Source of the DNA: Kutzneria viridogrisea
Lineage (GTDB): Bacteria > Actinomycetota > Actinomycetes > Mycobacteriales > Pseudonocardiaceae
NCBI GenBank assembly: GCA_014138725.1
Contig: JACJID010000001.1
Span: 1,922,001 to 1,986,000 of the forward strand
Direction: 5' to 3'
DNA: 64,000 bases
Part shown: positions 3,794 through 64,000 of the stretch, piece after piece
Numbering within the stretch: the first letter of the stretch is position 1
Layout: each line of letters starts with the position of its first letter
The notes under the pieces: model-generated
What the model saw: the letters and a program-made list of their open reading frames with translations, nothing else
Databases searched by the model: none
What the model was told of the DNA's origin: nothing
Position numbers and translations under genes: made by a program

Positions 3794-3921
3794 CAAACCC
3801 ACACCACCCCACCAACGTCCCACCCTTGTCCCATATCCGACAGCCGCCGAGAGGATCCTCGCCGTGGCGAGCTTCACCCTCAGGATCATTGGTACGCGGC
3901 CACTTCCAGGTCCACGGCCCT

Positions 3922-5714: not shown

Positions 5715-5815
5715 GGGGAAATGCCACGAATTCGAGACTGAACTTGATGACACCGCAATGAGACAACCGAGAAGGCCCAGGCCAACGAAGATCGACATGT
5801 CATCGTTGGCGAGAT
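5715..5815. repeat. Dispersed ~90-110 bp repeat, copy A
   Basis: About 75% identical by eye to 7975-8080, in the same orientation. Shared anchors include GGAAATGCCACG, GAGACA with CCAAGAA/CCGAGAA and GCCCAGG, and AAGATCGACATGTCA. The two copies flank the reductase/IS3 segment. They may be solo ends of an old element; which one is unknown. Confidence 0.6.
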
Positions 5816-5875
5816 GCTACACGACTTGAAGGATCTCGCGGCTGATGTCGTAATCTCACGGGCCGTGTCGTACCA

Positions 5876-5891
5876 ATGTCGTATACGACAT
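5876..5891. promoter_or_regulatory. 16-bp perfect palindrome
   Basis: ATGTCGTATACGACAT is self-complementary and sits inside a wider imperfect inverted repeat (CTCACGG about 20 bases left, CCGTGAG just right; another GATGTCGTA further left). It could be a repressor operator or part of a mobile-element end. It lies just beyond the 3' end of the interrupted reductase gene. Confidence 0.5.
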
Positions 5892-6512
5892 CACCGTGAG
5901 ACTAGCGCGTGGGTGCTGCTGCTCAGCGCCTCGTCTCGTACCGGGTCAGGACCACGCCGCCGGGAAACGTCCGCGTCTCCACCAGGTTCAGGTTCACCCA
6001 GCTGTCCAGAGCGGTGAAGAACGGCGTGCCGCCGCCGACCAGGACTGGATATGTGGCCAGCACGTACTCGTCGATCAGCCCAGCCCGCATCGCCGCCCCA
6101 GCGAGCGTCGCACCCCCGATCTCCATCGGGCCGCCGTCCCCGGCCTTCAGCCGAGTGATCTCGGCGACCGCGTCCCCGGTGACCAGGCGGGTGTTCCAGC
6201 CGACCTTGTCGAGCGTCGAGGAGAACACCACCTTCGGCGTGTCCCGCCAGTTGCGTGCGAACTCGATCTCCGCCGGGGTTGCATTGGGCTGCTCGTCGCC
6301 GGTCGGCCAGTAGGAGCTCATCGTCTCCCACAGCTTGCGCCCGTACAGCGACATGCTGTTGCCCAGCTCCTGGTCGAGCCACCACTGGAACAGTTCGTCG
6401 CTCGGCGGTCCGCTCCAGCCGATGGCGTCGCCGGCCGCGGCGATGTAGCCGTCCAGGGTCTGTTCCGTATCGGGTTTGATGGAGACATCGAAACCTGGAA
6501 GGAACCATCACG

Positions 6513-6830
6513 ATGCCCGCGCCGAAGAAGTACCCCGACGAGTTGCGTGAACGCGCGACCCGGATGGCCGTGGACGCCCGCCGGGACCCCGCCACCGCGC
6601 CAGGCGCGATCAAACGGATCGCCGACCAACTGGGCATCCACCCCGAATCGCTACGGACCTGGGTCAAACAAGCCGAGATCGACAGTGGGGACCGGTCGGG
6701 CACCACCACCAGCGACGCCGAGCGCATCGCCCAGCTGGAACGCGAGAACCAGGAGCTGCGTCGAGCCAATGCGATCCTCAAGTCCGCGTCGGCTTTCTTC
6801 GCGGCGGAGCTAGACCGCCCCTCCCGCTGA
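6513..6830 (+). CDS. IS3-family transposase OrfA
   Basis: A 105-residue protein with an N-terminal HTH_Tnp_1 domain (MPAPKKYPDELRERATRMA) and a C-terminal leucine-zipper-like helix (ERIAQLERENQELRR). OrfA binds the inverted repeats. The orfB frame is open in the -1 register across the end of this gene, so ribosomes slipping at about 6770-6815 would make the OrfAB transposase. I could not identify a classic slippery heptamer. Confidence 0.9.
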   Translation: MPAPKKYPDELRERATRMAVDARRDPATAPGAIKRIADQLGIHPESLRTWVKQAEIDSGDRSGTTTSDAERIAQLERENQELRRANAILKSASAFFAAELDRPSR

Positions 6831-6886
6831 TCGTCGACTACATCGACACCCACAAGCACCAGTTCGGAGTCGAGCCGATCTGCACC

Positions 6887-7756
6887 GTGCTCACCCAGGC
6901 CGGCATGAAGATCGCTCCGAGCACCTACTATGCCGCCCGGTCCCGCCCGCCGTCAGCCCGCGCGGTCCGCGATATCGCCATCACCGCGAAGATCACCCAG
7001 ATCCACCAGGACAACTACGGCGTCTACGGGGTCCGCAAGGTCCACGCCGAACTGGTCCGCCAGGGCGGGGTCCACGGCCGAACAGTCGCCCGCTGCACCG
7101 TCGCTCGACTGATGAGAACGGGTGGCCTGCAAGGGGTTTCCCGACTGAGGACACCACGCACCACCCGACCGGGCAAAGGGAACGACTCGCGCCCGGACTT
7201 GGTCAAACGGACCTTCACCGCCCCGGCGCCCAACCGGCTGTGGGTCGCCGACATCACCTACATCCGCACGTTCACCGGCTGGGTGTATGCCGCGTTCGTG
7301 CTGGACGTGTTCTCCCGCCGTGTGGTCGGCTGGCAGGTCTCCACCAGCCTGCGCACCGGCCTGGCGCTCGACGCGCTGGAGATGGGCCTGTGGACCCGTC
7401 GACGGGACCGACAGGACACCCGCGCCCTGGTCCACCACTCCGACCGCGGCGCGCAATACGGGGCGGTGCGCTACACCCAACGGCTGGCCGCCGCCGGCGC
7501 GGTGGCCTCGGTCGGATCCGTGGGCGACAGCTACGACAACGCCCTGGCCGAGGCGTTCAACTCGATCTTCAAGGCCGAGTTGATCCGCAACATGGGCCCC
7601 TGGCGCGGCATCGACGATGTCGAGATCGCCGTCGCGGAGTACATCGACTGGTACAACCACCGCCGGCTCCACGGCGAACTCGGCCTGATTCCACCGGTGG
7701 AACACGAAGCCAACCATCACCGCGTAAGCACACCCGCGTCGACACCGAGCGGATGA
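6887..7756 (+). CDS. IS3-family transposase OrfB (DDE integrase domain)
   Basis: The catalytic half of the transposase. From this ATG it is 289 residues, but similarity continues upstream in the same frame (PLIVDYIDTHKHQFGVEPIC) to about 6805, so it is probably made mainly as an OrfAB fusion. The DDE triad is visible as WVADITYI, HHSDRGAQY and the Glu in ALAEAFNSIFKAEL. The C-terminal YNHRRLH block is typical of the family. No disruption is seen. Confidence 0.92.
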   Translation: MLTQAGMKIAPSTYYAARSRPPSARAVRDIAITAKITQIHQDNYGVYGVRKVHAELVRQGGVHGRTVARCTVARLMRTGGLQGVSRLRTPRTTRPGKGNDSRPDLVKRTFTAPAPNRLWVADITYIRTFTGWVYAAFVLDVFSRRVVGWQVSTSLRTGLALDALEMGLWTRRRDRQDTRALVHHSDRGAQYGAVRYTQRLAAAGAVASVGSVGDSYDNALAEAFNSIFKAELIRNMGPWRGIDDVEIAVAEYIDWYNHRRLHGELGLIPPVEHEANHHRVSTPASTPSG

Positions 7757-48419: not shown

Positions 48420-49578
48420 CACGCTCGCGAGTGCCCAACTGGGCCGCCAGCAGGGTCACCAGCACGCAGCCCACCCCCATCACCAGCAGCATGGTCGCGG
48501 TGCCGAACAGTTCGGCGATCGGGGACAGCAGGGCGGTTCCGGCGGGGATCAGCGCCCGGTCGGTGTTGGCGATGCCCAGCACCCGGCCGCGCAGTTCGTC
48601 GGGCAGCGCGAGTTGCAGCGCCGAGCGGTTGCTCGTGCGGTAACACTGGCCGACCACCCCGACGAGCAGCATCATCGCCACCGCCGCCTCGACCCCGAAG
48701 GAGCGGAACACCAGCAGCCCCAACAACATGACGCCCAGCGCCACCCCGGTGACCGCCGCCAGCACCCCCGGCCTGGCCGGTGCCCGGCGGCTCAGGCTCA
48801 GCGAGGCCGCCAACGCGCCCACCGCGCCGGAGGTCAGCAACAGCCCGGTGGTGCCCGCGTCCCCACCGACCAGGTCCTTGGCCAGCAAGGGCATCAGCGA
48901 GGTGTACGGGAAGGCGAACAACATCGGCCCCACGGCCAGCGCCAGTTGGGCCCGCACCACGGGGTTCTCCCGGACGAACGGCCACAGCGGGGTGCTCGGC
49001 CCGCGCTCCGCGCGCCGCGAGTTCTCCGGCAGGATCGTCAGGCAGCACAGGGAAAGCACGCTGCACGCCACGTTGAACCAGAAGACCGTGACCAGCGGGG
49101 TGGTCGCCAGCAGCACCGAGCCGATCGCCGGGCCGAGCACCATCGCCAGGTTCAGGCAGGCCGAGTGCATCGCCACGACCTTGGCCAGCGGTCTGCCCCC
49201 GCACAGCAGCGGCAACATCGACTGCCGCAGCACCGGCTCGGCGCACCCCGCGACCGCCCGCACCAGCACCGCACCGCAGAGCACCCACATCGGTCCCTCG
49301 CCGACCACGGCCGCCGCCACCGCGAGCGTGGACACGAACAGGGCCAACCGGGTGCCCGCGAGTAATCGCCTGCGGTCGAAGCGGTCCGCCAACCAGCCCG
49401 TGGGCGCCGTGCAGAACAGGATCGGCGCCAGACGCAGCACGTTGACCAGCCCGAGCATGGTCGCCGAGTGCGTGCGCTCCAACACGTACCAGTTGAGCGC
49501 CAACAGGTCCGCGTTGTCGCCGATGCGGGAGGCCAGCGTGCCCGTCAGGAACAGCGTCAGGGGTTTGCGGCCGCTCAC
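48409..49578 (-). CDS. MFS transporter, probable siderophore exporter
   Basis: A 389-residue membrane protein with about 10-12 hydrophobic segments (for example LFLTGTLASRIGDNADLLAL, WLADRFDRRRLLAGTRLALF with the loop 2-3 MFS motif). It starts at GTG 49578, overlapping the synthetase stop by 4 bases (GTGA), so the two are coupled. EntS-like exporters next to NIS synthetases usually secrete the siderophore. Confidence 0.88.
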   Translation of the reverse strand: MSGRKPLTLFLTGTLASRIGDNADLLALNWYVLERTHSATMLGLVNVLRLAPILFCTAPTGWLADRFDRRRLLAGTRLALFVSTLAVAAAVVGEGPMWVLCGAVLVRAVAGCAEPVLRQSMLPLLCGGRPLAKVVAMHSACLNLAMVLGPAIGSVLLATTPLVTVFWFNVACSVLSLCCLTILPENSRRAERGPSTPLWPFVRENPVVRAQLALAVGPMLFAFPYTSLMPLLAKDLVGGDAGTTGLLLTSGAVGALAASLSLSRRAPARPGVLAAVTGVALGVMLLGLLVFRSFGVEAAVAMMLLVGVVGQCYRTSNRSALQLALPDELRGRVLGIANTDRALIPAGTALLSPIAELFGTATMLLVMGVGCVLVTLLAAQLGTRERVMA

Positions 49579-52500
49579 GACAGCAGGGGGTTGGGACGCG
49601 GGCAGTGCACGACACCGTCCACAGGGGCCATCCTCATCCTCGCCAGTGCTTTCTGTGACAGGGTCGGCGCGAGCAGCGCCGCGTACTCCTCCTCGGCCCA
49701 CGGCGAGTCGATGCCCTCGTGCACCCGCCGCAGGACCTCGCGGACCAGCCCCCACAGCGACTCGGCCCGCACTTCGGCCACGGTGGTCAGCAGGTCCACC
49801 ACGTCGGCGAGGTTGGCCAGCACCACGGCGTGCGCCAGCTTGGCCCGCACCTCGGCCAGGTCCTCGGTGATCGTCACGGAGCCCTCGTGCGGGGTGAACT
49901 CCGCACCGCTGAGCCGCATCCGCTCGCGGTGGCCCCGCATACCGGAGAAGTCGCGCAGCAGCAGCCGGACCGGCCGCCCCTCCCGGACCACCAGCACCGT
50001 GTTCTGCAGGTGGGCCTCCAGCGCGATGCCGTGCCGCCACATCAGCGGCAGGGTTGCCGAGAACAGCAGGTCCGCGTACTCGGTGAGGAACTCCTGCGGC
50101 GACTGGGTTTCCAGCAGGTCGGCGAGCAGCGGGCGCCCCGTCGCGGGCGAGGTGGCCCGCAGCGCGCAGGCGGAGAACGCCCACTCGCCCCGGCCCACCT
50201 GGTCGGCCGGGTCCTCGCGCAGCAGCGCCGACAGCCCGCGCTTGCGGCCCGGCGTGTCAGCGGCCCCGGCGAACGCCACACCCGCCAGCTCGGCCACGAC
50301 CCGCACCCGGTCGTTGTTCCCGACCAGCCGGGTCAGCAGCGCGCTCTGCGCGGGCCCGTTGCGGGTGCTCGCGGGCGAGATCGTCCGCCGCGTGGAGGTG
50401 ATCAGCACGTCCAGGGCCGTCTTCACCGTCAGGCGGCGGCCGTGCCGTCCCGGTGCCGCCGTGACCAGGCTGCGCAGCGACACCGTGGGACGGCACGCCA
50501 GTTGCGCCTCGGGGATCGGTACGACCTCGCCGGAGGCCAGCTCGGCGGCGTACTCGCGGGGCAGCGCCCTGGCCGCCTGCCAGGGGTGCACCGGCACCAG
50601 TTCGTACCGGCCCGGGTCGTGCCCGCGGCGCTCCAGCCCGGCCCTGGCGCGGGCGGCCACCTCGGGGTAGTGCTCGGCGATCAGGTCGCCGACGGACCTG
50701 CCCGACTCGTCGGGGGTCAGCATGGTCAGCTCGCGGCGTACGGCAACCAGTTGCACGCCAACGGTGTCCGCGGTCTCAGCGGCGTAGGCCAGCGAGTCGG
50801 CGGGGGTGAACTCGCCGCGGCTGCGCCCGAACGGGTGTAGCAGGTGGCCCTCGGCGCACATCGCGTCCAGGTCCAGGATGAGGTCGCTGACCGACTGGTC
50901 CGCGCTGAGCCGCCGACGGCGCCGCGCCACCCCGGCGCGGGACAGCGCCAGGTTGCGCGCCGAGTCGGCCAGGTCCGCGCGGACCTGTGCCGGGTGCACC
51001 AGGTCGACCAGTTCGTCGATGGTGTGCACCGGACGGTTCGTGCCGACCACGTCCTCACGTTCCATCGCACCGAGTGCGCGGTACACAGTGGACAGACGGG
51101 CGCCGGGCAACTCCGTCAGCCAGTCCCGCAACAACTCCGGATCGCTCTCGCGGAGCTGGTGGTACATCTGCTCTTCCGGCAAGGACAGGTCCTCCGGCAT
51201 GGCGGGCGGTTCGCTGTCTCGCAACGGGTTCGGCGCGTCCACGTAGCGCTGGTCGGTGACCAGCGAGGCCAGGCGCATCGCCAGCATCGTCTTGTACCGC
51301 CAGGGCTTGTGCAGCAGCGCCTCGGCGTCGGCGCGCGCGTCGTCCACCTCGTCCTGGCTCACCGCGGCGGCCGTCAACCGGGTGAAGGTGCGCAGCACAC
51401 ACCGCCGCACGACGGCCCACAACTGGTCCTCGGGGCAGCCCGTGCCCTCGGCGACGGCGGCGATGAGCTCACCGAGGTGGTTGCCGAAAAGCGGGAAGAA
51501 CAGCTTGGCCCGCAACAACTCCGGGTCCTCGGCGAGCAGGGCCGAACCGGGCAGCAGCTCGATCTCGAAGCCCCGGCGGGCCAGTCGCTGGGGCAGCAAC
51601 CGGGCGCCACCGAGATCGCGGACCAGCACCCGCTGTGGCCGCTTGTCCGCCAGCACCAGGACCGCGTTCTGCGGGTGGGGTTCCAGTGCTATCCCGTACC
51701 GGACCAGCAGGGTCAGCGCGGCGGGCACGCACAGTTCCACGTGCTGCCCCAGCCACTCCTGCGCGACCTCGTCCAGCGTGCCGCCGACCTCGCCGTGCAA
51801 CTCGGTGAGCAGGTCGGCCACCACGGAGTTGCCCGTCACCGGTGAGGTGGCCAGCAGTGCGGCCACCGGCATGGCGAGCTCGCCGGGCGCGACACCGGCC
51901 GCCACGTCCTCGCGCAGCACCGAACACAGCGAGCGCTGCCTGGCCAGTGCCTTCTCGGAGTCACCGGTGTCCCAGCCCTCGCCGCGCGCCTCCGGTGGCA
52001 CGTAGCCGACTCCGGCCAGCTCGCGGCAGATCGCGAACCGCCGTCGCCCGTCCTGCGTGGTGCGGCTCAGGTCCAGGTCACCGGCGGCGATCCGCTCCAC
52101 CAGTTCGGACACCTTGGGCCCGTTGTGGATCGCGGCCTGCGACACACCCCGGACCGCCCCGGTGACGCGGACCTCCAGCGCGGTCTTGACGTGCAGTCCC
52201 ACCGGGCTGCCAGGTTCGCGCACGGCCAGTGTCCGCACCGACATCAGCGGTTCGGCGGGAATCCTCGCGCGCAGTGGCAGAACCGTGCCGTCCGCGAGGG
52301 CGTCGCTGTGCAGCTGCGGCAGGGCGTGCTCGCGCTGGTGCGGGTGGATCGGCACGAACACGTAGCCGTCCGGGTCGTGTCCGGCCGCCCTGAGTTCGGC
52401 CTCGGCCTCGGTCACGGCCCGCGGGAACGCCTCGCGCAGCACGGCGCGGGCGACGGGGGAGCCGACCGCGCAGTCCTGGCGCACCGCGATCAGCCCGAGG

Positions 52501-53105
52501 TCGAAGGAGACGCCGAACTCGGGCCCGTACCGCACGGCGTCCACGGCGGACATGCCGATCTTGATCTTGGCGCCGGGGTGCATCGGGTGCCCGTCGACCA
52601 CCAGTTGCTCGAAGGCCACGGCCAGGCAGCCGTGCCCGCCCGCCGCGCGCAGGGCCGCGTCCAGGGCGCTGAACGGGGCGTCCACCTCGGACGGGCGGCG
52701 GCGGTGCTCGGCGGCGACCATCGCCAGGGCCTGGCCGGTGACGCTGTGCCCGATCTCCTCGGCGACCCGCAGCCACTCGCCGGGCGCGCCGGTGCCCAGC
52801 CCGTGCTCGGCGATCAGCCGCAGCAGGTCGACCGGGTCCTCGACGGTCCTGTCCTCGAAGACCACCGGCCCGTCGGCGACCAGCCGCCCGGTGGCCGTGA
52901 CCTGACGAACTGTCGGTTTGAGCCGGTCGGAGCTGAGCAGCCGCTCGCGGACCAGTGCGGACACCAGTCTGTTCAGCACGGAACGGCGCGCTCCGGGCAG
53001 CTGTGCGCGGAACTGTGCGGCCAGTTCCGCGTCCTGTTGTGACAGCTCCTCTGCTACTCGCGCCTCGTGGTTGGCCAGGACGTCGGGCGGCGTGCTGGTC
53101 GACAT
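49575..53105 (-). CDS. Fused double-domain IucA/IucC NIS siderophore synthetase
   Basis: A 1176-residue protein with two complete IucA/IucC-type halves. Half one: GHPMHPGAKIKIGM, VPIHPHQREHALP, VKTALEVRVTGAVRG, EPHPQNAVLV. Half two: GHLLHPFGRSRGEF, VPVHPWQAARALP, VKTALDVLITSTRRT, EAHLQNTVLVV. Each NIS synthetase unit is normally a separate protein of about 580-600 residues, so this is a natural fusion. They condense citrate or succinate-like acids with amines/amino acids using ATP. The amine-providing enzyme is not in the window. Confidence 0.92.
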   Translation of the reverse strand: MSTSTPPDVLANHEARVAEELSQQDAELAAQFRAQLPGARRSVLNRLVSALVRERLLSSDRLKPTVRQVTATGRLVADGPVVFEDRTVEDPVDLLRLIAEHGLGTGAPGEWLRVAEEIGHSVTGQALAMVAAEHRRRPSEVDAPFSALDAALRAAGGHGCLAVAFEQLVVDGHPMHPGAKIKIGMSAVDAVRYGPEFGVSFDLGLIAVRQDCAVGSPVARAVLREAFPRAVTEAEAELRAAGHDPDGYVFVPIHPHQREHALPQLHSDALADGTVLPLRARIPAEPLMSVRTLAVREPGSPVGLHVKTALEVRVTGAVRGVSQAAIHNGPKVSELVERIAAGDLDLSRTTQDGRRRFAICRELAGVGYVPPEARGEGWDTGDSEKALARQRSLCSVLREDVAAGVAPGELAMPVAALLATSPVTGNSVVADLLTELHGEVGGTLDEVAQEWLGQHVELCVPAALTLLVRYGIALEPHPQNAVLVLADKRPQRVLVRDLGGARLLPQRLARRGFEIELLPGSALLAEDPELLRAKLFFPLFGNHLGELIAAVAEGTGCPEDQLWAVVRRCVLRTFTRLTAAAVSQDEVDDARADAEALLHKPWRYKTMLAMRLASLVTDQRYVDAPNPLRDSEPPAMPEDLSLPEEQMYHQLRESDPELLRDWLTELPGARLSTVYRALGAMEREDVVGTNRPVHTIDELVDLVHPAQVRADLADSARNLALSRAGVARRRRRLSADQSVSDLILDLDAMCAEGHLLHPFGRSRGEFTPADSLAYAAETADTVGVQLVAVRRELTMLTPDESGRSVGDLIAEHYPEVAARARAGLERRGHDPGRYELVPVHPWQAARALPREYAAELASGEVVPIPEAQLACRPTVSLRSLVTAAPGRHGRRLTVKTALDVLITSTRRTISPASTRNGPAQSALLTRLVGNNDRVRVVAELAGVAFAGAADTPGRKRGLSALLREDPADQVGRGEWAFSACALRATSPATGRPLLADLLETQSPQEFLTEYADLLFSATLPLMWRHGIALEAHLQNTVLVVREGRPVRLLLRDFSGMRGHRERMRLSGAEFTPHEGSVTITEDLAEVRAKLAHAVVLANLADVVDLLTTVAEVRAESLWGLVREVLRRVHEGIDSPWAEEEYAALLAPTLSQKALARMRMAPVDGVVHCPRPNPLLS

Positions 53106-53572: not shown

Positions 53573-54011
53573 CACCGAGGTCCTGATCACCCGTGAGTTC
53601 GAGGTGCCCGCGCACCTGGTCTACCGCGCGTGGACCACGCCCGAGCTGATCAAGCGGTGGTGGGGCGGGGACCGCGGCGAGGTCACCAGCGTCGAGGTCG
53701 ACCTGCGGGTCGGCGGCCGGTGGCGCTACGTGATGACCGCCAACGGCGGGTTCGAGGTCGGCTTCCACGGGGTCTACCGGGAGATCGTGCCCAACGAGCT
53801 GATCGTGTCCACCGAGGTGTTCGAGGGGGCGCCCGACGGTGAGTCGCTCAACACGCTGACCCTCACCGAGAAGGAGGGCCGCACCACGCTGGAGATCCTC
53901 GTGCGGCACGCCAAGCGGGAACACCGTGACGCGCACATCAACTCCGGCATGGAGGTCGGCATGCAGGAGTCCATGGACCACCTGGAAGCAGTGGCGAAGT
54001 CCCTGCGCTGA
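53541..54011 (+). CDS. SRPBCC/AHSA1-domain protein
   Basis: A 156-residue START-like lipid/hydrophobic-ligand-binding fold protein: REFEVPAHLVYRAWTTPELI, KRWWGG, RVGGRWRYVM, then LTEKEGRTTLEI. The pair ArsR plus AHSA1 is common in bacteria and may sense and bind a hydrophobic compound. Start ATG 53541 has AGGAGG upstream. Confidence 0.88.
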   Translation: MGNAVVTLPGDTEVLITREFEVPAHLVYRAWTTPELIKRWWGGDRGEVTSVEVDLRVGGRWRYVMTANGGFEVGFHGVYREIVPNELIVSTEVFEGAPDGESLNTLTLTEKEGRTTLEILVRHAKREHRDAHINSGMEVGMQESMDHLEAVAKSLR

Positions 54012-54049
54012 GCCCCACCCCGCGCGTGACTTCGGACCCCAGGGCTCAG
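54008..54049. terminator. Bidirectional hairpin between convergent genes
   Basis: CTGAGCCC (54008-54015) pairs with GGGCTCAG (54042-54049) around the convergent stop codons of the AHSA1 and ATPase genes. No T-tract follows on either side, which is usual in actinomycetes. Confidence 0.55.
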
Positions 54050-54537
54050 GGCGCCGGTGGACCGGCGAGCGCCGCCAGCTGGTCCACCACCTCGGTGAGC
54101 GGCGTGCGGGTGTCGATTTCCACGGTGGCCGAGGACCGGAGCAGCGGCTCGATCTCGGCTGTGTCCGCCACGATCCGGTCGCGTTCCCCGGCGGTCTTGC
54201 CGAAGGGGTTGTTGTCCCGGTTGGCGATGCGGTCCAGTACCACCGCCAAGGGCGCACTGAGCAGGACGATCTCGTCGAAACGGGAGTGGAACCTGTGCTG
54301 GTTGCATACGGTGCCCGCGATGAACAGCGGCTCACCGGAACGCTCGTGGTCCGCGATCAGCGCCTCGATCCGGTCCTCGCGCCACTGCGGCTCCCCGCCG
54401 CTGCCGTCCGGGCTGGGGACCTCCTCGATCCACCCGCCGAAGTCGGTGTCCACCACGCGATAGCCCCGCTGTTCCAGCTGGTTCAGCGCGGTCGACTTGC
54501 CCGTGCCGGACATGCCCGTCACCAGGATCACTGCCAC
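54046..54537 (-). CDS. Small P-loop ATP-binding protein (AAA/shikimate-kinase-like)
   Basis: A 163-residue protein starting at GTG. Walker A GMSGTGKSTALNQLEQRGY, then VVDTDFGGWIEEV, and VVDQLAALAG near the C-terminus. It resembles the small nucleoside/shikimate-kinase-like ATPases of actinomycetes and probably phosphorylates a small molecule; the substrate is unknown. Confidence 0.82.
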   Translation of the reverse strand: MAVILVTGMSGTGKSTALNQLEQRGYRVVDTDFGGWIEEVPSPDGSGGEPQWREDRIEALIADHERSGEPLFIAGTVCNQHRFHSRFDEIVLLSAPLAVVLDRIANRDNNPFGKTAGERDRIVADTAEIEPLLRSSATVEIDTRTPLTEVVDQLAALAGPPAP

Positions 54538-54904
54538 CCGCCCACGGTAGAGCGGCAGCCGAAGCTTTGTCAGGGCTACCGGTCGATGGCAGACGGCCCC
54601 CTTGTAGATGACGCGAAGGTCCGTCCCTGTGGGGGAAATGCGTTGCTGGCTTGCGGGGACCCCAGGTACCCATGGCACGGCTCGCGCCACGCTCTGAGTA
54701 GCAGTGCCGGGGCCATTGGCGCGATCCGCACCACGGGATCGGGGACGGTTGCGGCCATCGTGGGCGCAAGAGCCCCAGGGCGATGGGATGGCAGGATGTC
54801 TCTGCCATGGAGGAGACTTCACTGCATCGCACTACCGGTGAAGCGGCACGAGGAAAGTGATGCCAGATTGGGGACTGCCGCTGTATCCTCGCAGGTCAAG
54901 AAGT
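54538..54904. other. Non-coding stretch with probable CRISPR leader
   Basis: 367 bases without a supported gene. The last 60 bases before the first repeat (TGTATCCTCGCAGGTCAAGA at about 54882-54901) are the likely leader side of the array, since the repeat copies decay to the right. Confidence 0.5.
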
Positions 54905-55113
54905 GTCTTCCCCGCGCATGCGGGGGTGGTCCGACCGGCATCGGCGGGCACCGGATCCTGGCCTAGTCGTCCCCGCATGCGCGGGGATGGTCCATGAGCG
55001 CAGGGCGTGCGCTACCCTGGGAGCACGTCGTCCCCGCGCACGCGGGGGTGGTCCGTTCGACGCGCCCGTCGTGAAATCCAACTGCGAGTCTTCCCCGCGC
55101 GCGGGGGTGGTCC
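54905..55113 (+). CRISPR. Type I-E-like CRISPR array, 4 repeats, 3 spacers
   Basis: Repeats at 54905-54932, 54966-54993, 55027-55054 (28 bases each) and a degenerate 26-base copy at 55088-55113. The repeat begins GTCTTCCCCGC or GTCGTCCCCGC and ends GGTGGTCC/GATGGTCC, with a short stem centred on GCATGC or GCACGC. All three spacers are exactly 33 bases. The consensus is typical of actinobacterial type I-E systems. No cas gene is in the window. Confidence 0.93.
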
Positions 55114-55133
55114 CACCAGAATTACTATATTCA

Positions 55134-55171
55134 CACCAGGCCCGGTAGGACATGTCCTACCGGGCCTGGTG
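55134..55171. terminator. 38-bp perfect palindrome
   Basis: 19-bp arms meet at GGACATGTCC without a spacer. The palindrome is located just past the CRISPR array and overlaps the end of the serine-recombinase remnant. It would form a very stable hairpin or cruciform; it could act as a terminator or a recombination/plasmid-type site. Confidence 0.7.
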
Positions 55172-55654
55172 CTGTCTGGGCTGGTCATGACGGTGCTCCC
55201 AAGCGTCGCCAGAAGCGCGCTGGGCGGCCGGTTCTGGTCGGCGGCGTCTTCTGGTTTGGAGCACATCCGCCGTCCCAGAGGCGGTCTGGGCCACCTCGAA
55301 CAGGCGGCCACCAGCCAACAACGCCGCAAAGGGCTCGGTCAGCTGCGCCCGCTCAACTGAACCGTCCTCACCGATGAACAGCTTCTCGAAGAAGCCTTGG
55401 TTGATCTGTCTCTTGGTCTGGTTCGTGGCCTGGGTGTACGCCTCGTGGCAGTGCCGCACGGCAGCCAACGCCTGGCTCAGCGTGGCTTCGATGTCTCGCG
55501 TGGTCGTCTTGGCCGCCGCGATCTCGGTCTCGGCCTCGGCCAGCGCTCGGGTCAGGCGGTTCATCTCGCTGGCCAGCAGGTCTTGCGGAACAGCCCCAGC
55601 GTAGTGAGCTTGGAGCAGCTTCTGCCGCTCGTCTTGCACTTGGTGATACAGCAC
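55157..55654 (-). pseudogene. C-terminal fragment of a large serine recombinase
   Basis: 165 codons resembling the coiled-coil C-terminus of serine integrases: LYHQVQDERQKLLQAHYAGA, VPQDLLASEMNRLTRALAEA, and QINQGFFEKLFIGEDG. The catalytic resolvase domain and zinc-ribbon region are absent. It is probably a remnant of an integrated element. Confidence 0.75.
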
Positions 55655-56143
55655 CTATGCAACGAACCCGGCTACTCCCAGCGAATGCAGCAGATTGGGC
55701 AAAGCAGTAGCCATCCCGCTCAGTCGAAGAAGTTCGCCGCAGCTTCCCCCTGCTTCACCGACTACGAGACCAGCAAGCCGCTGGATCTGGATAGCTTGAA
55801 GCCGAAGGCGGGCGCGTCGGCCCACTTGCCAGCGCGACCGTAGCGAACGCGGGGGTCTTGTCGAGGCCCAAGGCTTCTCGTGGCTGTAGCTCATTGCCCT
55901 TGGAGCTCAATAGCATCGGGTCGGCTGTGGTGAGTTCACCTGCCTGTTAGGTGCTGTCCGACCAATCCTGCCCCAGGATGACCTCACCGCCCCGTCCTGC
56001 TCGACCACAACACCCACAGCGCGCACAACCCCAGACCAATCCACGCACCCCACAGCACCGCCCACCAGCTGTCCACTACGACCCGCAACCATCGGCGAGG
56101 CGCCGACTTGTCCGACCGAGCCGGATCGCACCCACGACGATCC
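55655..56143. other. Gene-poor stretch
   Basis: 489 bases without a firmly supported gene. On the minus strand, 55984-56076 could encode a 30-residue hydrophobic peptide from GTG (DSWWAVLWGAWIGLGLCALW segment), a possible micro-membrane protein, but I see no strong ribosome-binding site. Confidence 0.35.
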
Positions 56144-57217
56144 TCATGACTCGACCATCCAGCGGTTCGGTGTGCTCCAGGCCTGCTCCCAGGCCGACCA
56201 CAGCTTGCCCCATGCAGTCCCGCTCGGCATCACGGCCAACTCAGTCTCTGGAGTACTCTGCAGCACCAGAGTCGCGGCTTGGTCGCACGCGGCGATGCTC
56301 ACCAGTCCTCCGGGGTGCGGTGTGACCACAAACCGTTCCCCCAGCAGACCTACGACCGGATGCACCAGCCGGGACGCCACCCATCCCGCGCTCGGCCCGG
56401 CCTGCCAACTCAGGTGCAGGACATCCGGTTGTTCAGGTTGCACACAGAGCCCGTGGGTCTGTCCCAGCAACCACGCCCGCCGCAGCACAGCACTGGCCAG
56501 ATGCACGTATTCGGTCGCGCGCGGCCGGCTACTGAGCGCACTGACTTCCTCTGGGGTCAGCGGGATCGGGTGGTTACTCGTCCAGCGCAGCGGATCGGAC
56601 TCAGGGCGGGCCGCCTCCAGGAATGCCATGGCGGCCAACCACTGCCGGTACGACACGTTGGCCAGTAGCACCGTGGCCACCGGCTCGCTGCCGAACAGAT
56701 ACAGCTCGATGTGTCTGCGGTGCAACCTGGCCCGCAGGCCCGGTACCCCGGCCACCGTGTCGCACGAAGTGATGCGCGGCAACAACTCCAGCATCAGGGG
56801 CGCGAGAATCGGCGGCTCCAGGTGCAGCACCAACTCATCCGGCTGCGGCCGCACCATGCGCAGGGCCCGACCGGGTTGGGCCGCTAGTCCAGCCGTCAGC
56901 GGCGAACCGAGACGCATATACCCCAGCGCCCGACTGAGGGCGGCCAGAATGCCCGCCTCCAGTTGAACCTGGCCAGGGTGGGTGGCATCCGGCAGCACGG
57001 CGGCCCGGATGCGGCCGGGTAGCGGCGGCGCGTGGTCGTCGCCGAGCAGGCGGGCCGAGTAGTCCCGGCAGATGGCCCCAAGCAGCAGCGCCCGCTCCAC
57101 GGGATCCAGCTGCTGACCGCCACGAGAGATCGCGGGCAGCACCGTCGAATCGGTTTCCCCAGTGAACTGGCGGCGCAGATCGGCCAGACGACGGATCAGG
57201 CTTGTCCGGTTCGGCAC
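56144..57217 (-). CDS. Hypothetical protein, partner of an XRE regulator
   Basis: A 357-residue protein. GTG 57217 is chosen over the longer frame because GGGAG lies upstream and the extra N-terminus is low complexity. Helical N-terminus (SLIRRLADLRRQFTGE), then VERALLLGAICRDYSARLLG; a later VATVLLANVSYRQWLAAMAF segment. No known domain. It is divergent from the XRE/TPR regulator at 57478 across 260 bases, which suggests it is the target of that regulator. Confidence 0.65.
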   Translation of the reverse strand: MPNRTSLIRRLADLRRQFTGETDSTVLPAISRGGQQLDPVERALLLGAICRDYSARLLGDDHAPPLPGRIRAAVLPDATHPGQVQLEAGILAALSRALGYMRLGSPLTAGLAAQPGRALRMVRPQPDELVLHLEPPILAPLMLELLPRITSCDTVAGVPGLRARLHRRHIELYLFGSEPVATVLLANVSYRQWLAAMAFLEAARPESDPLRWTSNHPIPLTPEEVSALSSRPRATEYVHLASAVLRRAWLLGQTHGLCVQPEQPDVLHLSWQAGPSAGWVASRLVHPVVGLLGERFVVTPHPGGLVSIAACDQAATLVLQSTPETELAVMPSGTAWGKLWSAWEQAWSTPNRWMVES

Positions 57218-57477
57218 GGGCGGGCTCCCACAGCTCTTAGGCCCTCGGCACTGGCCACCGCGGGCGGGCCACGTCCGGTACCCCGAACGCCTGGGACAAC
57301 CCTGGTCTGACCAGCCAGAACTCGGAACAGAGCTGGATACGTAGATCCACAAGGCGCGGCGGGCGCCGGTTCGTCCGGAGCGGCCCCGGAGCCTTACCCG
57401 GAGGATTGCGCTGGCTCCTGTGTTTGCCCAGGTCCAGCGCTACGCTGGAATGACTGCCGACTGCGGAAGAGGCCGCC

Positions 57478-58809
57478 ATGCCGGACGTTCCCAACCTCCT
57501 GCTGCGGGCGGCCCGCGAGGTTGCCGGTCTCACCCAGGGGCAGTTGGCGGAGCAAGCCAACGCCGAGGTGGAGCGGGCGATCGGCCGACCTGGAGCCATG
57601 GACGCCGACTACATCGGCAAGCTCGAACGCGGCGTCCACTCCTGGCCGAACCAGCACTACCGCGCGGCGTTGCGGAGCGTGCTGCGGGCGGACACCGACG
57701 CGGATCTTGGTTTTCGCGGGGCGCGCAGCAGGCATGGTGCGGCTACCGGCTCGTGGCCCGCAAACGGGAGGGATGACGTGGAGCGCAAGGCATTCCTGCG
57801 AGTGCTGGCAGGCAGCGTGGCGGGGCTCGCCTTCAGCGATCCGCTGGGCGACTTCGCGGCCAACGCCGCCGTCAGCGGGCCGCGCAGGGTCGGACTGGCC
57901 GATGTCGAGCAGGTGCGGCACATGGCTCGACTGTTCGCCAGCCAGGATCACCTGGTGGGTAGCGGCTTGTCAGCCCAGACCGTACTGACCCAGCTGTCGG
58001 TCTCGGCCGGTCTGTGTGACGGGCAGTTCGCCAAGGACGCCGTGCGACAGCAGTTCTTCGCGGCGGTGGCCGAGATGGCTGACACCGCCGCAGGCATGTG
58101 CCTGGATGCGGGCACCCTCGCCCAGGCCGAACGCTGTTTCCGCTTCGCCGTGGGATGTGCCACCGAGGCCGGCGACTGGGCGATGCGGGCCAAGGCGTTG
58201 TCGGGGCTGGCCAACCTGGCCGTGCGCCAGGAGCGGGCCGACGACGCGCTGAGCTTCGCCGAGATGGCCTTGGTGCGCTCCGACCGACTGACGCCGCTGG
58301 TGCGTTCGGTGATGCACACCCGCCGCGCCCGGGCGCTGGGGCTGGCCGGTGGGCACCGGCAAGCCGACTGCCTTACCGCAGTTGCTCAGGCCGAGGATGA
58401 CTTCGCCCGCACGGGCGGCAACGAACCGGAGTGGATCGTCTACTTCGGCGGCGCGCACCTGGAGCGTGACCTGGGCCGCGCCTTGTCGCACCTGGCGCTC
58501 GGCGGTGGAGACTTCACGCCCGCCCGTCAGCGCCTGCAGGCGGCCGTCGCCCGGTTCGGTGAGCCGCCCTCCAGGGGCAAGGCGCTGGCGCTGGCGAGCC
58601 TGGCGCACCTGACCATGGCCCGCAGCGACCCGGCCGAGGCGGCAGCGCTCGGTCACCAGGCGGTGGCAGCGGCCAGCGGGGTGCGCTCCGACCGCGTGCT
58701 GGAGGCACTGCGGCAGTTGCGTACGGCGAGCACGAGCCACCGGAACTTGCCTGTGGTGCGCGAGCTGGGGCAGCGGGTGGATCTGGTGCTGAAGGCGGGG
58801 CGGGTGTAG
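57478..58809 (+). CDS. XRE-type HTH regulator with TPR-like C-terminus
   Basis: A 443-residue protein from ATG 57478 (GAAGAGG upstream). HTH: LLLRAAREVAGLTQGQLAEQ, then MDADYIGKLERGVHSWPNQ. A Pro/Ala linker follows, then helical repeats (FRFAVGCATEAGDWAMRAKA) resembling TPR sensors. Actinomycetes often pair such regulators with a divergently transcribed small gene or operon. Confidence 0.85.
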   Translation: MPDVPNLLLRAAREVAGLTQGQLAEQANAEVERAIGRPGAMDADYIGKLERGVHSWPNQHYRAALRSVLRADTDADLGFRGARSRHGAATGSWPANGRDDVERKAFLRVLAGSVAGLAFSDPLGDFAANAAVSGPRRVGLADVEQVRHMARLFASQDHLVGSGLSAQTVLTQLSVSAGLCDGQFAKDAVRQQFFAAVAEMADTAAGMCLDAGTLAQAERCFRFAVGCATEAGDWAMRAKALSGLANLAVRQERADDALSFAEMALVRSDRLTPLVRSVMHTRRARALGLAGGHRQADCLTAVAQAEDDFARTGGNEPEWIVYFGGAHLERDLGRALSHLALGGGDFTPARQRLQAAVARFGEPPSRGKALALASLAHLTMARSDPAEAAALGHQAVAAASGVRSDRVLEALRQLRTASTSHRNLPVVRELGQRVDLVLKAGRV

Positions 58810-58846
58810 CACTCCCTGGGCGTCTCGCGGCGTCTGCACTGTCAGT

Positions 58847-59780
58847 GAGCCTTTGTCAGTTGGGTGTTGTGAGCTGGACGTAGCGCCGTGTGGCGGGCCT
58901 GAACGTGGTGAAGCTCCTGGTAGGACGTGTGATTGTCGAGATCAACCCGTCCAGGCCAGGAGCTTCACGTGCTTTCCTACCCGTCGTCGATGCAGGTGTC
59001 CAGCCGGTGCCTGAGGATGCTCGCCGAGGCGTTGCGTGGTCGCCGCACAACGGTGCGGACCCGCTGGCGTCGCCTCGAACCGGGCCGCCAAGCGCTCCTG
59101 GTGCTCGCTCATCTGCGTAAAGGCGAAACCTATCGTGACCTGGCCGACGGTTTCGGGATCGCGACGAGCACCGTGTACCGGTACCTGCGGGAAGGGCTCG
59201 CGCTGCTGGCCGCGATGGCCCCGGCGCTGGACGAGGTGATCGAGGTCGCGCGCCGCAAAGCCTATGTGGTGCTCGACGGGACTCTGCTCCGCATCGACCG
59301 GGTCGGCATGGCCGGCGGACAGGATCGGCCGTTCTATTCCGGCAAGCACAAGGCTCACGGGGTGAACGAGCAGGTCATCGCCGACCCCGCCGGACGACTG
59401 ATCTGGGTGTCGCCGGCACTGCCCGGAGCACGCCACGACCTGGGCGCCGCTCGGGAGCACGGCATCGTCGACGCGATCACCACCGCGGGCATCACGGCCT
59501 GGGCCGACAGCGCCTACCAGGGCGGCGGGCCCGCGATCCGTGTCCCGCAACGCCGCCGGCGCCTCGACCCGGCCACCGGCCGCTACCGGCCGCTGTCCGC
59601 CAACCAGCGCGCGGTCAACACCGCCCACGCCCGCCTGCGCGGACCCGGCGAACGCGCGAACGCCCAGCTCAAGGCCTGGAAAATCCTCCGCAGAATCCGA
59701 TCATGCCCCAGCCGGGCCACCGAACTGGTCAACGCGATCCAGACCCTCATCCTCGCCGGATAACCAACTGACAAAGGCTC
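58847..59780 (+). mobile_element. IS5-family insertion sequence, 934 bp
   Basis: Inverted repeats GAGCCTTTGTCAGTTGG at both ends, flanked by a 3-bp duplication AGT (58844-58846 and 59781-59783). One transposase gene. Inserted immediately 5' of the lower-GC defence-like operon. Confidence 0.9.
58969..59763 (+). CDS. IS5-family transposase
   Basis: A 264-residue single-frame DDE transposase from GTG 58969 (AGGAG upstream). HTH region: GETYRDLADGFGIATSTVYR. Catalytic D, D, E: VVLDGTLLRIDRV, AWADSAYQGG, and GERANAQLKAWKIL. It appears intact. Confidence 0.9.
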   Translation: MLSYPSSMQVSSRCLRMLAEALRGRRTTVRTRWRRLEPGRQALLVLAHLRKGETYRDLADGFGIATSTVYRYLREGLALLAAMAPALDEVIEVARRKAYVVLDGTLLRIDRVGMAGGQDRPFYSGKHKAHGVNEQVIADPAGRLIWVSPALPGARHDLGAAREHGIVDAITTAGITAWADSAYQGGGPAIRVPQRRRRLDPATGRYRPLSANQRAVNTAHARLRGPGERANAQLKAWKILRRIRSCPSRATELVNAIQTLILAG

Positions 59781-59961
59781 AGTGGGTGGTATGCCTTCAT
59801 CTACTTGCTAGCACATGGCGCGACCGATCATCCGATCCGCAGTAGTCCATAGAGTCTAGTTAACTATAGGCTATATGGGTGAATCTGTTGAGTTTTGAGT
59901 AACGTCTCCTGGATGCGCAGCGAACAAGGCGAATGCAGGGCTTGATAGGCAAGCCGCCGAC

Positions 59962-59990
59962 TTTATTGCTTTCGTGTTGGGATATATAAT
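59962..59990 (+). promoter_or_regulatory. Probable promoter of the nuclease-HerA operon
   Basis: TATAAT (59985-59990) is a consensus -10 box, rare in this high-GC DNA, with TTTATT at 59962-59967 in the -35 position (17-base spacing). The AT-rich stretch 59784-60007 has no gene and lies 18 bases upstream of the first start codon. Confidence 0.5.
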
Positions 59991-60007
59991 CGGTCTGAAC
60001 GGGGACC

Positions 60008-61264
60008 ATGCACGTGAGTACAGTCATGTCGAAAACGGGAAAGAGTCGGTTCGCTGGACCGTCGATAACCGGCTACGCATATCAGTTCGACCTGACTACT
60101 CTTGAAATTCTTCGGTCAGCTCCTGGTGATGTGATCACCGTCGAGGGCTGTGAAGACATCGACATCGATGGTAGCGCGGGCTCTGAGTCGGTCCAGTGTA
60201 AGTACCTTTCGAGTGTTGCTTATTCTCCGGCCAGTATTCGCGATGCGGTGCGACCAATGTTTGATGCCTATGTCGGTGGCAGGAAGCATAATTACCGACT
60301 CTATGCCCACTTTGCAGATGGCCGTCTTGCGCCGAGTCGGCTCACAGTTGCCGACTTGCGGGAAGTGCTAACTGAACACAAACGCAAGCCTCCTGAAACG
60401 ATTCGCTACTACGAGGGCGTATCGGAGCGGGATATGCGTGATTTTGTTGAACAGTTCACGATCACTTCGGGCCCCTCCTATGACCTTCAGCGGGCGGCGG
60501 TTCGGGATGAGCTACGCGCAGCCTTTGGCGGCACCCTGGACGATGCTGAACAGTTGCACTATGGAAATGCGATGGCTGCGATCGTCGAGCTCGCGATCCA
60601 GCGTAATGAGCCTGACCGAAGGATCACGAAAGCCCAGTTTGTTGAGCGTGTAAATAGGCGCCCCGTTCTGTTCAGCCGCTGGTATGCCGAGTTTGTTGGC
60701 GAAGAGAAGGTTCTTCAAAAAACTCAGCAACGCCTAAAGGGGTTGGGGGTGTTTTGCGCTCCAAAGAAGCGCGTCATTGTGGTAGATGTTGAGCTTTTGG
60801 ATCAAGGTAATAGTGTGGCGCAAATGATTCACTTGGTCGAAGTGCTTTCAACTGAACTGTACGGCCGTGGAAGATTGAAAAACGCGAAGCCATGGACGAT
60901 GATTCTCGAAGGTTCAAGCGAAGGCGTACTCACGCTTAAGAAGCAGTTGGCGGCTTCTGGGGCCCGGTTCAACGACGGATATGAACATCTGACATTCAAT
61001 CCTTCGGTGTTTGAAGCGCTACCGCTGGTCAACACTAAGAACGGTGGCGACATGATAGAAGCGACGTCATACGGAATTCGTCTGGTTAGTGGCGACACGT
61101 ACGCTAGGCATCGGCAAGAAATTGAGATGCCTGATGCGGTAGTGAGCTTTGGATCGTCAGACTTCTCTCGCTACTTTTCTGGTGCGCCTAAGTGTGCGGT
61201 TCATGTACCAGTGGGCGATGTCGAGGCGATTATTACTTTTATGAAGGGGGTTGCCGCCCGATGA
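60008..61264 (+). CDS. PD-(D/E)xK-like nuclease, first gene of defence-type pair
   Basis: A 418-residue protein. Residues about 18-66 show the pattern GYAYQFDLTTLEIL, EGCEDIDIDGS, ESVQCKYL, in which the Asp, the following Glu/Gln and Lys fit a PD-(D/E)xK nuclease active site, resembling DUF4297-like or restriction-type nucleases. The rest has no recognised domain. Codon use and base composition are clearly lower in GC than the surroundings. The stop overlaps the ATPase ATG by 4 bases. ATG 60026 is an alternative start. Confidence 0.75.
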   Translation: MHVSTVMSKTGKSRFAGPSITGYAYQFDLTTLEILRSAPGDVITVEGCEDIDIDGSAGSESVQCKYLSSVAYSPASIRDAVRPMFDAYVGGRKHNYRLYAHFADGRLAPSRLTVADLREVLTEHKRKPPETIRYYEGVSERDMRDFVEQFTITSGPSYDLQRAAVRDELRAAFGGTLDDAEQLHYGNAMAAIVELAIQRNEPDRRITKAQFVERVNRRPVLFSRWYAEFVGEEKVLQKTQQRLKGLGVFCAPKKRVIVVDVELLDQGNSVAQMIHLVEVLSTELYGRGRLKNAKPWTMILEGSSEGVLTLKKQLAASGARFNDGYEHLTFNPSVFEALPLVNTKNGGDMIEATSYGIRLVSGDTYARHRQEIEMPDAVVSFGSSDFSRYFSGAPKCAVHVPVGDVEAIITFMKGVAAR

Positions 61265-63027
61265 CTGACATCTCCAGTATGGCAAAAGTGGTCTGCGTGG
61301 CCCCCGACCTAATTCAAATAGAAGTGCTTTCATCGGATGCCTACCAGGCGCTCGATGTGAAGGTCGAAATCGGTAGCTACCTGACGATCTCTGACGACAA
61401 AGGCCTTGCTGTAGTGGCAATCGTCCAAAGCTACCGGATTAAGGATCGCGCTGGCAGTCCCAGTGGTGAGAGTGTTACATCGCCTACGTTTGTAATTGAT
61501 GCCCAGCCAGTTGGGCGGCTTCAAGACGGGGAATTTCGGCGTGGCGGCAAGCAGATCGCGATTCCGCCCAGTCGTGTAGAGATCTCCTCGCAATCTGTGC
61601 TGACTAAGATCTATGACAGTGTTTCCGAGTCGAAGCGGTTCAGTTTCGGCCAGCTTGCGCAGGATCGCTCCGTTCGTGTCACCCTCGATGGAGACAAATT
61701 TTTTGGCAAGCACATCGGTGTTGTCGGATCAACCGGCTCTGGGAAATCGTGTACCGTAGCGAAGCTGCTGCAGGAGGGCATGGAGCCGTCTTGTGACCAG
61801 AAAGAACGAGGCGTTTTAAACAACTCGCATATCATTATCTTTGACCTTCACGGGGAGTATAAGGCTGCTTTTCCAAGTGCGCATGTGATCGATACGGGAA
61901 ACCTGAATCTTCCGTACTGGCTGATGAACTCAGAAGAGTTGGGGGAGATGTTTATTGAAAGCAATGAGCAAAACTCTCACAACCAGGTATCGCAGTTTCG
62001 CCAGGCAGTCATCGAGAATAAGGTATCTCATCACACCTCTGGCGGTGAAATCAATACATCTTATGACTCTCCTGCGTACTTCAGCCTGAGTGAGGTAATT
62101 AACTACCTGTATAATCTAAATGCTGAGATGGTAGGAAAGGGCTCTGGTGAGGATGGGAGTCCTAAGCTAAAGGATGGCACCTATGTTAAGGATCGCTCCT
62201 CTAGGTATTTTCGGGAGCGTTGCAGATTCGCAGACCCAAACTCCTCGCCAACTGCCAGGGTAAGTGGCGGCCCGTTCAATGGTGAATTCAATAGGTTCTT
62301 AATGAGGCTCGATGCGCGACTGAACGATAAACGTCTAAACTTCCTTCTTGGGCCTCGTAAGGTCGACGGAGCTGAGTACAAGACGGCCGACCTGGCTGAA
62401 CTTCTGTACCAATTCACCGGCTATGGCATCCCAAAGAGGAATGTCACCATTATCGATCTCAGTGGTATTCCGTTTGAGGTGTTAAGTGTAGTTGTGTCGC
62501 TAATTAGTAGGCTCATCTTTAGTTTCAGTTTTTACTTCCGGAAGAGCAAGAGTGTTGGCGAGTCGGACCTTCCATATTTGCTTGTCTACGAGGAAGCGCA
62601 CAATTACATTCCTCGCTCCGAAGGGGCTAAGTATGGCTCCGTCAAGAAAGCGATCGAGCGAATTGCAAAGGAGGGGCGCAAGTATGGGATCTCTCTAATG
62701 ATTGTTAGCCAACGTCCCTCTGAAATCTCCGAGACTGTATTTTCTCAGTGCAACAACTTTGTGGCAATGAGGCTAACTAACCCTAGTGATCAGCAGTACG
62801 TAAAGCGGCTTCTTCCTGACACTGTTAGTGCTATAACTGACGGTTTGCCGTCGCTAGAAAAGCAAGAGGTTATCGTAATTGGGGACTCTATTGCGATCCC
62901 TTCAGTTGTGAGGGTTGACGACGTTCTTCATCGTCCCGACTCGCGGGATATCAATTTTCATACCGAATGGAAAAAGGATTGGCTAGATTTGGCAATTCCG
63001 CTGATCTTGGAGAAGTGGACGAAGTAG
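61261..63027 (+). CDS. HerA/FtsK-type ATPase (DUF87-like)
   Basis: A 588-residue P-loop ATPase. Walker A VGSTGSGKSCTVAKLL near residue 160, an IIIFDLHGEYKAAF strand, Walker B LLVYEEAHNYIP near residue 443, sensor IVSQRPSEISETV, and FVAMRLTNPSDQQYV with an arginine-finger-like Arg. The N-terminal 150 residues form a HAS-barrel-like region. HerA ATPases partner nucleases in archaeal DNA repair and in several bacterial anti-phage systems. It is coupled to the nuclease gene (ATGA overlap). Confidence 0.85.
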   Translation: MTDISSMAKVVCVAPDLIQIEVLSSDAYQALDVKVEIGSYLTISDDKGLAVVAIVQSYRIKDRAGSPSGESVTSPTFVIDAQPVGRLQDGEFRRGGKQIAIPPSRVEISSQSVLTKIYDSVSESKRFSFGQLAQDRSVRVTLDGDKFFGKHIGVVGSTGSGKSCTVAKLLQEGMEPSCDQKERGVLNNSHIIIFDLHGEYKAAFPSAHVIDTGNLNLPYWLMNSEELGEMFIESNEQNSHNQVSQFRQAVIENKVSHHTSGGEINTSYDSPAYFSLSEVINYLYNLNAEMVGKGSGEDGSPKLKDGTYVKDRSSRYFRERCRFADPNSSPTARVSGGPFNGEFNRFLMRLDARLNDKRLNFLLGPRKVDGAEYKTADLAELLYQFTGYGIPKRNVTIIDLSGIPFEVLSVVVSLISRLIFSFSFYFRKSKSVGESDLPYLLVYEEAHNYIPRSEGAKYGSVKKAIERIAKEGRKYGISLMIVSQRPSEISETVFSQCNNFVAMRLTNPSDQQYVKRLLPDTVSAITDGLPSLEKQEVIVIGDSIAIPSVVRVDDVLHRPDSRDINFHTEWKKDWLDLAIPLILEKWTK

Positions 63028-63112
63028 GACGTAGGACGGCACTTCTTATTGTGCCCGGTCGAGTATGAGTCATTGGTGTGTCCACTGTGATACTTGCGAC
63101 ATCCCCAGTGCT

Positions 63113-63544
63113 CTACCGTTCCCGCCCCTGCGCATCCCGCATACTGACGCCGATCTCTGACAGTCGCGCTCGCACCGTGTTGGCGGTCGTGTTGAGCTTC
63201 ACCGCGATGCGCGCGAGTGGCCAGCCACCCTCGTAGAGTTGGGCAGCAGTCGGTACGTCGTCGGGGTGCAGACCTGGGGGCTTGGTGTCGATACCTCGGG
63301 CTCGCAGGTGCTTGCCGATGGTGGCGCGGCTGACGCCGAACTTGGCGGCCAGGGTGTACACGGTGGCACCGGTTCCGTAGCCCTCCACCAACTCGTCGAT
63401 CTCGGCCGGACGAAGCTGGCGAGCGGATCGGTGCGCCCTCGCGGGCGGCGCTGCGCAGGGCCAGCACTCCGGCCAGGTCTTGGCGATGTCCAGGAGCCGC
63501 CGAACCGGGCGGGGGACGTGTGAAAGCGCCGTGGTGACGCCCAC
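63113..63544 (-). CDS. Double-HTH DNA-binding protein
   Basis: A 143-residue protein from GTG. There are two HTH blocks in tandem: VYTLAAKFGVSRATIGKHLR and LARIAVKLNTTANTVRARLS. Small proteins of this kind accompany mobile elements in actinomycetes. It lies next to the second CRISPR array and could also be a recombinase fragment, since no catalytic part is present. Confidence 0.65.
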   Translation of the reverse strand: MGVTTALSHVPRPVRRLLDIAKTWPECWPCAAPPARAHRSARQLRPAEIDELVEGYGTGATVYTLAAKFGVSRATIGKHLRARGIDTKPPGLHPDDVPTAAQLYEGGWPLARIAVKLNTTANTVRARLSEIGVSMRDAQGRER

Positions 63545-63575
63545 CTACCTGACCACCAAGGACGCCGCCTGGTTC

Positions 63576-63723
63576 GTCTTCCCCGCGTACGCGGGGGTGG
63601 TCCCGGCTCGGGCAGCACAACCGACTCGTGGTCCTCGTCTTCCCCGCACGCGAGGGCGGTCCCAGTCGGGACTTGCTGGAGATCGCCCGCCAGTTGCCTT
63701 CCCGGCTCGCGGGGGCAAGTGCC
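63576..63723 (+). CRISPR. Degenerate type I-E-like CRISPR array, 3 repeats, 2 spacers
   Basis: Repeats at 63576-63603 (28 bases, GTCTTCCCCGC...GGTGGTCC), 63637-63662 (26 bases) and a strongly altered copy at 63696-63723 (GCCTTCCCGGC...AAGTGCC). Both spacers are 33 bases. It is of the same family and orientation as the array at 54.9 kb. No cas genes are nearby. Confidence 0.85.
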
Positions 63724-63862
63724 AGGCCGTCAGCCCGCGATTCGGAGTGGGACACAACGGGACCCAAGAGCTTCATTTGGGCAGGGCAGACCAGGTTCGT
63801 TCGCCCAACGGGGCAGGTCAGCGCGAAGCGTCGGAAGTTGGCGTAGTTCTTGCCGTCGTGCG

Positions 63863-64000
63863 TCACCCGTCGGCGAGGCGTTGGATGGTGGCGCTCAGCC
63901 AGGCCTGGAGATCAGCGGGGTCGCCGAGTTCGGAACGCAGGATCCGGCGGCGGGTGGAGACGCCGAGCACGAAAGCGTCGATCGCTGCGGCTCGGCTGCG
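63863..64000 (-). CDS. C-terminal part of a regulator-like protein (partial)
   Basis: 45 codons plus stop reach the window edge: AIDAFVLGVSTRRRILRSEL, then WLSATIQRLADG. The helical sequence and ending resemble TetR C-terminal regions, but the HTH lies outside the window, so this is tentative. Confidence 0.45.
   Translation of the reverse strand, partial: RSRAAAIDAFVLGVSTRRRILRSELGDPADLQAWLSATIQRLADG

Follow-up and report, generated by a model that had tools for sequence, protein, structure and literature searches.

What do two overlapping genes of low GC content, found in the neighbourhood of an insertion sequence and CRISPR-like repeats, encode in this actinomycete: a new anti-phage system or one already known? 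We analysed a stretch of 64,000 nucleotides (the window, with coordinates counted from its first letter) and conclude that the genes almost certainly form a DUF4297-HerA abortive-infection operon. The system is known and its complex has already been solved (PDB 8XAV, 8ZIQ and 9C1M series); the operon is a divergent member of it and, apart from the divergence of its nuclease, an ordinary defence operon. The original prediction of a PD-(D/E)xK-type nuclease and a HerA ATPase, likely directed against phage, is borne out by DUF4297 and HerA profiles, solved structures and the contexts of relatives. DUF4297-HerA, which it named as an example, proved apt, since both proteins match the profiles of that system, though below NCBIfam cut-offs.

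Both open reading frames are intact and, as foreseen, coupled through an ATGA overlap. On the forward strand the first (60008..61264) encodes a DUF4297 nuclease of 418 amino acids, assigned from PADLOC, NCBIfam, PDB and fold matches, and the second (61261..63027, beginning at ATG 61261 in a different frame) a HerA ATPase of 588 amino acids, assigned from PADLOC, NCBIfam and PDB. The true start of the nuclease may be ATG 60026 rather than 60008, since six plasmid-borne relatives start 2–3 residues ahead of the residue matching R14 of the window protein and residues 1–14 have pLDDT values <50 in the AlphaFold model. Upstream, a TATAAT hexamer read from the sequence (59985..59990, forward strand) is a possible −10 element. 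The −10 consensus claimed for it is true, but the promoter itself is unproven: the hexamer 17 bases upstream, TTTATT (59962–59967, forward strand), is a weak 3/6 match to TTGACA, and the site was not called by a promoter scan of 58800–63600, which returned 4 sites against 2.2 ± 1.3 in shuffled sequences.

Family membership of the nuclease is established by profile searches, with matches to PADLOC DUF4297 (E 8.6e-57) and NCBIfam NF042945 (DUF4297_antiphage; E 5.5e-67, 226 bits). The latter falls short of the equivalog cut-off of 300, these cut-offs being naming thresholds rather than defining features of DUF4297-HerA. Chain 8xav_G of the solved complex was matched over residues 14–337 (E 2.1e-28), as were 8ziq_A and 9c1m_A, and identity to the six aligned plasmid-borne relatives was 25–28%. 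The protein comprises an N-terminal Cap4-like PD-(D/E)xK domain (about residues 14–215) and a C-terminal domain (CTD; about 216–418). Pfam found no nuclease domain in it, and a sub-threshold HeH/LEM stretch was regarded as chance. An AlphaFold model of the whole nuclease, built from 66 sequences, had a mean pLDDT of 89.5 and a pTM of 0.76, with 383 of the 418 residues at pLDDT ≥70. When the PDB was searched with this model using Foldseek, all 12 best matches were DUF4297 chains; one (8zgi) comes from a structure of DUF4297 by itself and the other 11 from complexes with HerA. These alignments showed 18–23% identity, with TM-scores of 0.41–0.57 for long chains, low values that are expected of two flexibly joined domains; flexibility between the DUF4297 domains is reported by An et al. 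(PMC11291478). Profiles, solved chains and predicted fold thus all identify a DUF4297 nuclease.

The C-terminal 330 residues had been described as lacking any known domain, and the pair as a possible new variant on that account. The new-variant reading is not supported. We folded the CTD separately (residues 216–418, with 14 relatives), obtaining a model with a pLDDT of 86.6 and a pTM of 0.84, and at E ≤0.001 all 21 of its Foldseek matches in the PDB were DUF4297 chains. TM-scores were 0.57–0.73 by target length for chains of 167–180 residues and 0.50–0.67 by query length across all 21. Because the separately modelled fold matches DUF4297 chains exclusively at this threshold, the C-terminal part is, as modelled, the known DUF4297 CTD, predicted to have the fold that forms rings and docks onto HerA. 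In the published complex (PMC11291478), the upper DUF4297 layer is held together by CTDs, and those of the lower layer dock it onto HerA. A blastp search with the window CTD recovered the seven nearest loci, each with an E value no higher than 2e-16.

The ATPase matches PADLOC HerA at E 1.1e-192 and NCBIfam NF042944 (HerA_antiphage_2) at 730 bits, below the equivalog cut-off of 850. Its matches to HerA chains of solved DUF4297 complexes ranged from E 2.4e-163 (8ziq_M, over residues 8–586) to 3.9e-154, and in the C-terminal hook region, judged by sequence only, the alignment reaches residue 570 of 571 in 8xau_A. Both enzymes retain their catalytic residues. An et al. (PMC11291478) inactivated nuclease residues D40/Q53/K55 and HerA K157 by mutation. 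The nuclease positions align with D50/Q63/K65 of the window protein, a triad found in all 75 aligned nucleases (the window's and those of 74 of the 78 loci holding one, the other four being left out by length, from the best 80 of at least 528 HerA relatives). Likewise K157, E426/E427 and R455/K456 of the published HerA correspond to K162 (Walker A), E444/E445 (the Walker B glutamate pair) and R473/K474 (the Arg/Lys finger), and K162, S163, E444, E445, R473 and K474 are kept in all 78 aligned HerA proteins (the window's and those of 77 of the best 80 loci of at least 528).

Exact peptide patterns for the nuclease, which were probably too strict, found no relative in genome contigs, and a HerA alignment was therefore used instead. 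From 590 candidate stretches it retrieved at least 528 relatives, and the 80 best of these were retained. Within these 80 the pairing is established: a DUF4297 reading frame is present at 78 loci, the two others being L081, where the contig begins inside HerA, and L088, which has a SIR2 protein. The latter is a SIR2-HerA pair from a Nitrospira MAG (L088:4834–5859), recovered by the same search. The intergenic gap is −62 to +23 nt at 73 of the 76 loci with separate genes among the best 80 of at least 528, the exceptions being L023, L033 and L034; in the last, from Lachnospiraceae COE1 (2658–7620), a 609-aa frame separates DUF4297 from the matched HerA. On a Rhizobium rhizogenes plasmid (L010), IS66 genes come after DUF4297, with a partial HerA (query residues 138–588) on their far side, so that this copy looks interrupted. 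At two loci DUF4297 and HerA are fused in one open frame, of 1061 aa in a Tenacibaculum sp. (L027:4597–7782) and at least 970 aa in a Chitinophagaceae MAG (L047:124–3036, open to the contig start). The HerA halves of the two group together with support 99, near the window group (support 88, long branches), and the window and L027 CTDs are 24% identical in an alignment of 193 columns (E 9e-21). A single chain with 1:1 stoichiometry does not in any obvious way fit the published 12:6 complex.

The operon was probably acquired from elsewhere. Its composition is foreign, as the lower GC content noticed at the outset had implied, with 52.8% GC in the nuclease gene and 49.3% in the HerA gene against 67.9% in the window as a whole; GC3 is about 55% in both, against 86.2% in the upstream HTH gene and 84.1% in the transposase gene. 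The nuclease is also rare. It matched only itself in its own genome, which is the only carrier among 60 related genomes. A search of 396 genomes of the phylum gave a near full-length match there alone; two further matches, at E 1.3e-8 and 8.1e-4, were weak and short and did not exceed the cut-off. No match was found among 50,697 phage records. In a HerA tree drawn from the best 80 of at least 528 relatives, the window protein groups with those of Pseudonocardia (L021) and Curtobacterium (L014) with support 99, and at support 98 this group joins four Bacteroidota and one acidobacterium; two Streptomyces loci (L042 and L046) are placed elsewhere. The window, Pseudonocardia and Curtobacterium operons all have about 49–54% GC in surroundings of about 63–68%. 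Composition, tree placement and rarity are together consistent with transfer. We sought an empty site for window positions 54001–64000 and found no insertion junction, two genomes sharing small parts only: G007 shares 57499–58715 (71%) and G013 shares 63847–64000 (93%; on a 3.3-kb contig). DUF4297-HerA was rare in the actinomycete genomes searched (60 related, 396 of the phylum), and the operon extends its record there by a divergent member that was probably transferred.

The neighbouring insertion sequence was confirmed by 21-bp inverted repeats (58843–58863 and 59764–59784, 95% complementary) and a DDE transposase; it ends 223 bp upstream of the annotated nuclease start, and no target duplication was obvious by eye. 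Next to it, 57478–58809 encodes a regulator-like protein whose HTH_31/TPR matches fall below Pfam cut-offs; the same-family genome G007 has one that is 68% identical. The two CRISPR arrays said to adjoin the operon are present as CRISPR-like repeats of 28–29 nt, four copies 61 nt apart at 54905–55115 and two at 63576–63664, but only the latter, about 0.55 kb downstream, lies near, the former being about 5 kb upstream. The repeats of the two arrays are similar, and together they flank a stretch holding the HTH gene, the insertion sequence and the defence operon. The three neighbouring window proteins scanned matched no PADLOC family, so that they reveal no defence island beyond the CRISPR-like repeats. 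Elsewhere in the window we observed a reverse-strand frame with IucA/IucC and FhuF matches (49575–53105), likely a siderophore synthetase, and an Rfam ALIL pseudoknot (6791–6919; 57.7 bits). The defence and mobile contexts of relatives are established at the loci examined. The Pseudonocardia operon adjoins Shedu SduA and a type III restriction enzyme and the Curtobacterium operon an HSDR_N protein, while all six plasmid loci have mobile or toxin-antitoxin neighbours, lying within 6 kb of integrase, transposase, ICE, AbiEi or ‘mobile mystery’ genes, a mobility partly built in because these loci were drawn from a plasmid collection. A core, non-defence context for close homologues was looked for and not found in L021, L014 or the six plasmid loci.

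HerA is common to repair systems too, and the pair might on that footing serve DNA repair or DNA transfer, as HerA-NurA does, rather than defence. The window HerA does match two NCBIfam repair-HerA profiles at 119–126 bits. The defence-type profile however gives 730 bits, the partner is DUF4297 with no NurA match in profile searches, and the relatives examined adjoin defence or mobile genes, all of which makes a repair function highly improbable. That the pair is instead an NAD-depleting SIR2-HerA system is barely conceivable and already excluded by sequence: the HerA superfamily is shared and the same HerA search returned a SIR2 protein at L088, but the window nuclease has no SIR2 match in profile searches and the window HerA shares 33% identity with its L088 counterpart and 64% with the DUF4297-linked HerA of L021.

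A different reservation is that the operon could be an inactive copy of DUF4297-HerA, kept by chance after transfer. Its restriction to this one genome among 60 relatives (and, for near full-length matches, among 396 of the phylum) and the insertion sequence ending 223 bp before the annotated nuclease start would fit such a relic, whereas intact reading frames, conservation of all checked catalytic positions and a nuclease model with 383 of 418 residues at pLDDT ≥70 argue against it, and we consider decay quite unlikely. The favoured reading is a DUF4297-HerA operon, whose assembly, activity, abortive infection and protection of this actinomycete we infer by analogy. Six HerA and twelve DUF4297 subunits assemble in the published system, activating both enzymes, and host and phage double-stranded DNA is degraded and infected cells die (PMC12198126 and PMC11291478). 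If the window proteins follow the solved complexes, six HerA subunits would form a ring carrying twelve DUF4297 in two layers of six, of which the lower would dock via its CTDs onto the HerA N-terminal (HAS) domains. Assembly would let the upper nuclease domains pair and would activate both enzymes. Double-stranded DNA would then enter through HerA and both host and phage DNA be cut without sequence specificity, so that the infected cell would die before phage spread. What triggers DUF4297-HerA is called unclear in PMC12198126 and in PMC11291478.

The divergence of the two proteins is uneven. Against its nearest relative listed, that of Pseudonocardia xinjiangensis (L021), the window HerA is 64% identical and the whole nuclease 31%, with 37% in the nuclease domain and 24% in the CTD. 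The 215 pairs among 75 systems with HerA identities of 60–65% have mean identities of 40% (nuclease domain) and 34% (CTD), so that the window–L021 pair lies below both means; at HerA identities of 50–55% the means are 26 and 23%, all these pairs sharing ancestry and CTD alignments at 15–25% identity being unsure. Against L015 the window nuclease domain is 26% and the CTD 27% identical, the CTD being no faster there. Comparisons of sequences of this kind are a lead, rather than a test of selection. Since the nuclease and CTD appear to diverge much faster than the motor on which they would dock, the CTD layer could serve as the sensor or as a target for phage inhibitors. We offer as a speculation, rather unlikely as it stands, that the nuclease and above all its CTD meets phage variation in this way, and that the fused L027 and L047 proteins may not form a 12:6 complex. 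Across the 75 paired systems, the nuclease, and often its CTD, appears as the fast-changing part, which gives a handle on the unsolved trigger.

The closest known system is DUF4297-HerA itself (PDB 8XAU–8XAY, An et al. 2024, PMC11291478; also 8ZIQ/8ZIR/8ZIT, 8ZGI and 9C1M/9C5X). The window operon shares with it the pairing of nuclease and HerA genes, the Cap4-like domain with its CTD, the HerA Walker and finger residues and a HerA that aligns almost to the C-terminal end of the solved protein; it differs in a nuclease only 18–23% identical to the solved chains and in both proteins scoring under the NCBIfam equivalog cut-offs. The L021 operon resembles it in HerA (64% identical), in genes that overlap by 4 nt and in a GC content of 52.9%, lower than that of its flanks (63.2 and 64.5%), whereas the nucleases are 31% and the CTDs 24% identical and L021 has Shedu and type III restriction neighbours. 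Lamassu LmuA and other Cap4-like proteins share the nuclease part (PADLOC LmuA, E 1.3e-9; Foldseek 9hr5_C, E 1.0e-7), but the window CTD alone has no LmuA match at E ≤0.001 and the partner differs. SIR2-HerA, finally, has the HerA motor and, according to PMC12198126, an 18-subunit architecture in common with DUF4297-HerA, while its SIR2 effector is absent from the window pair.
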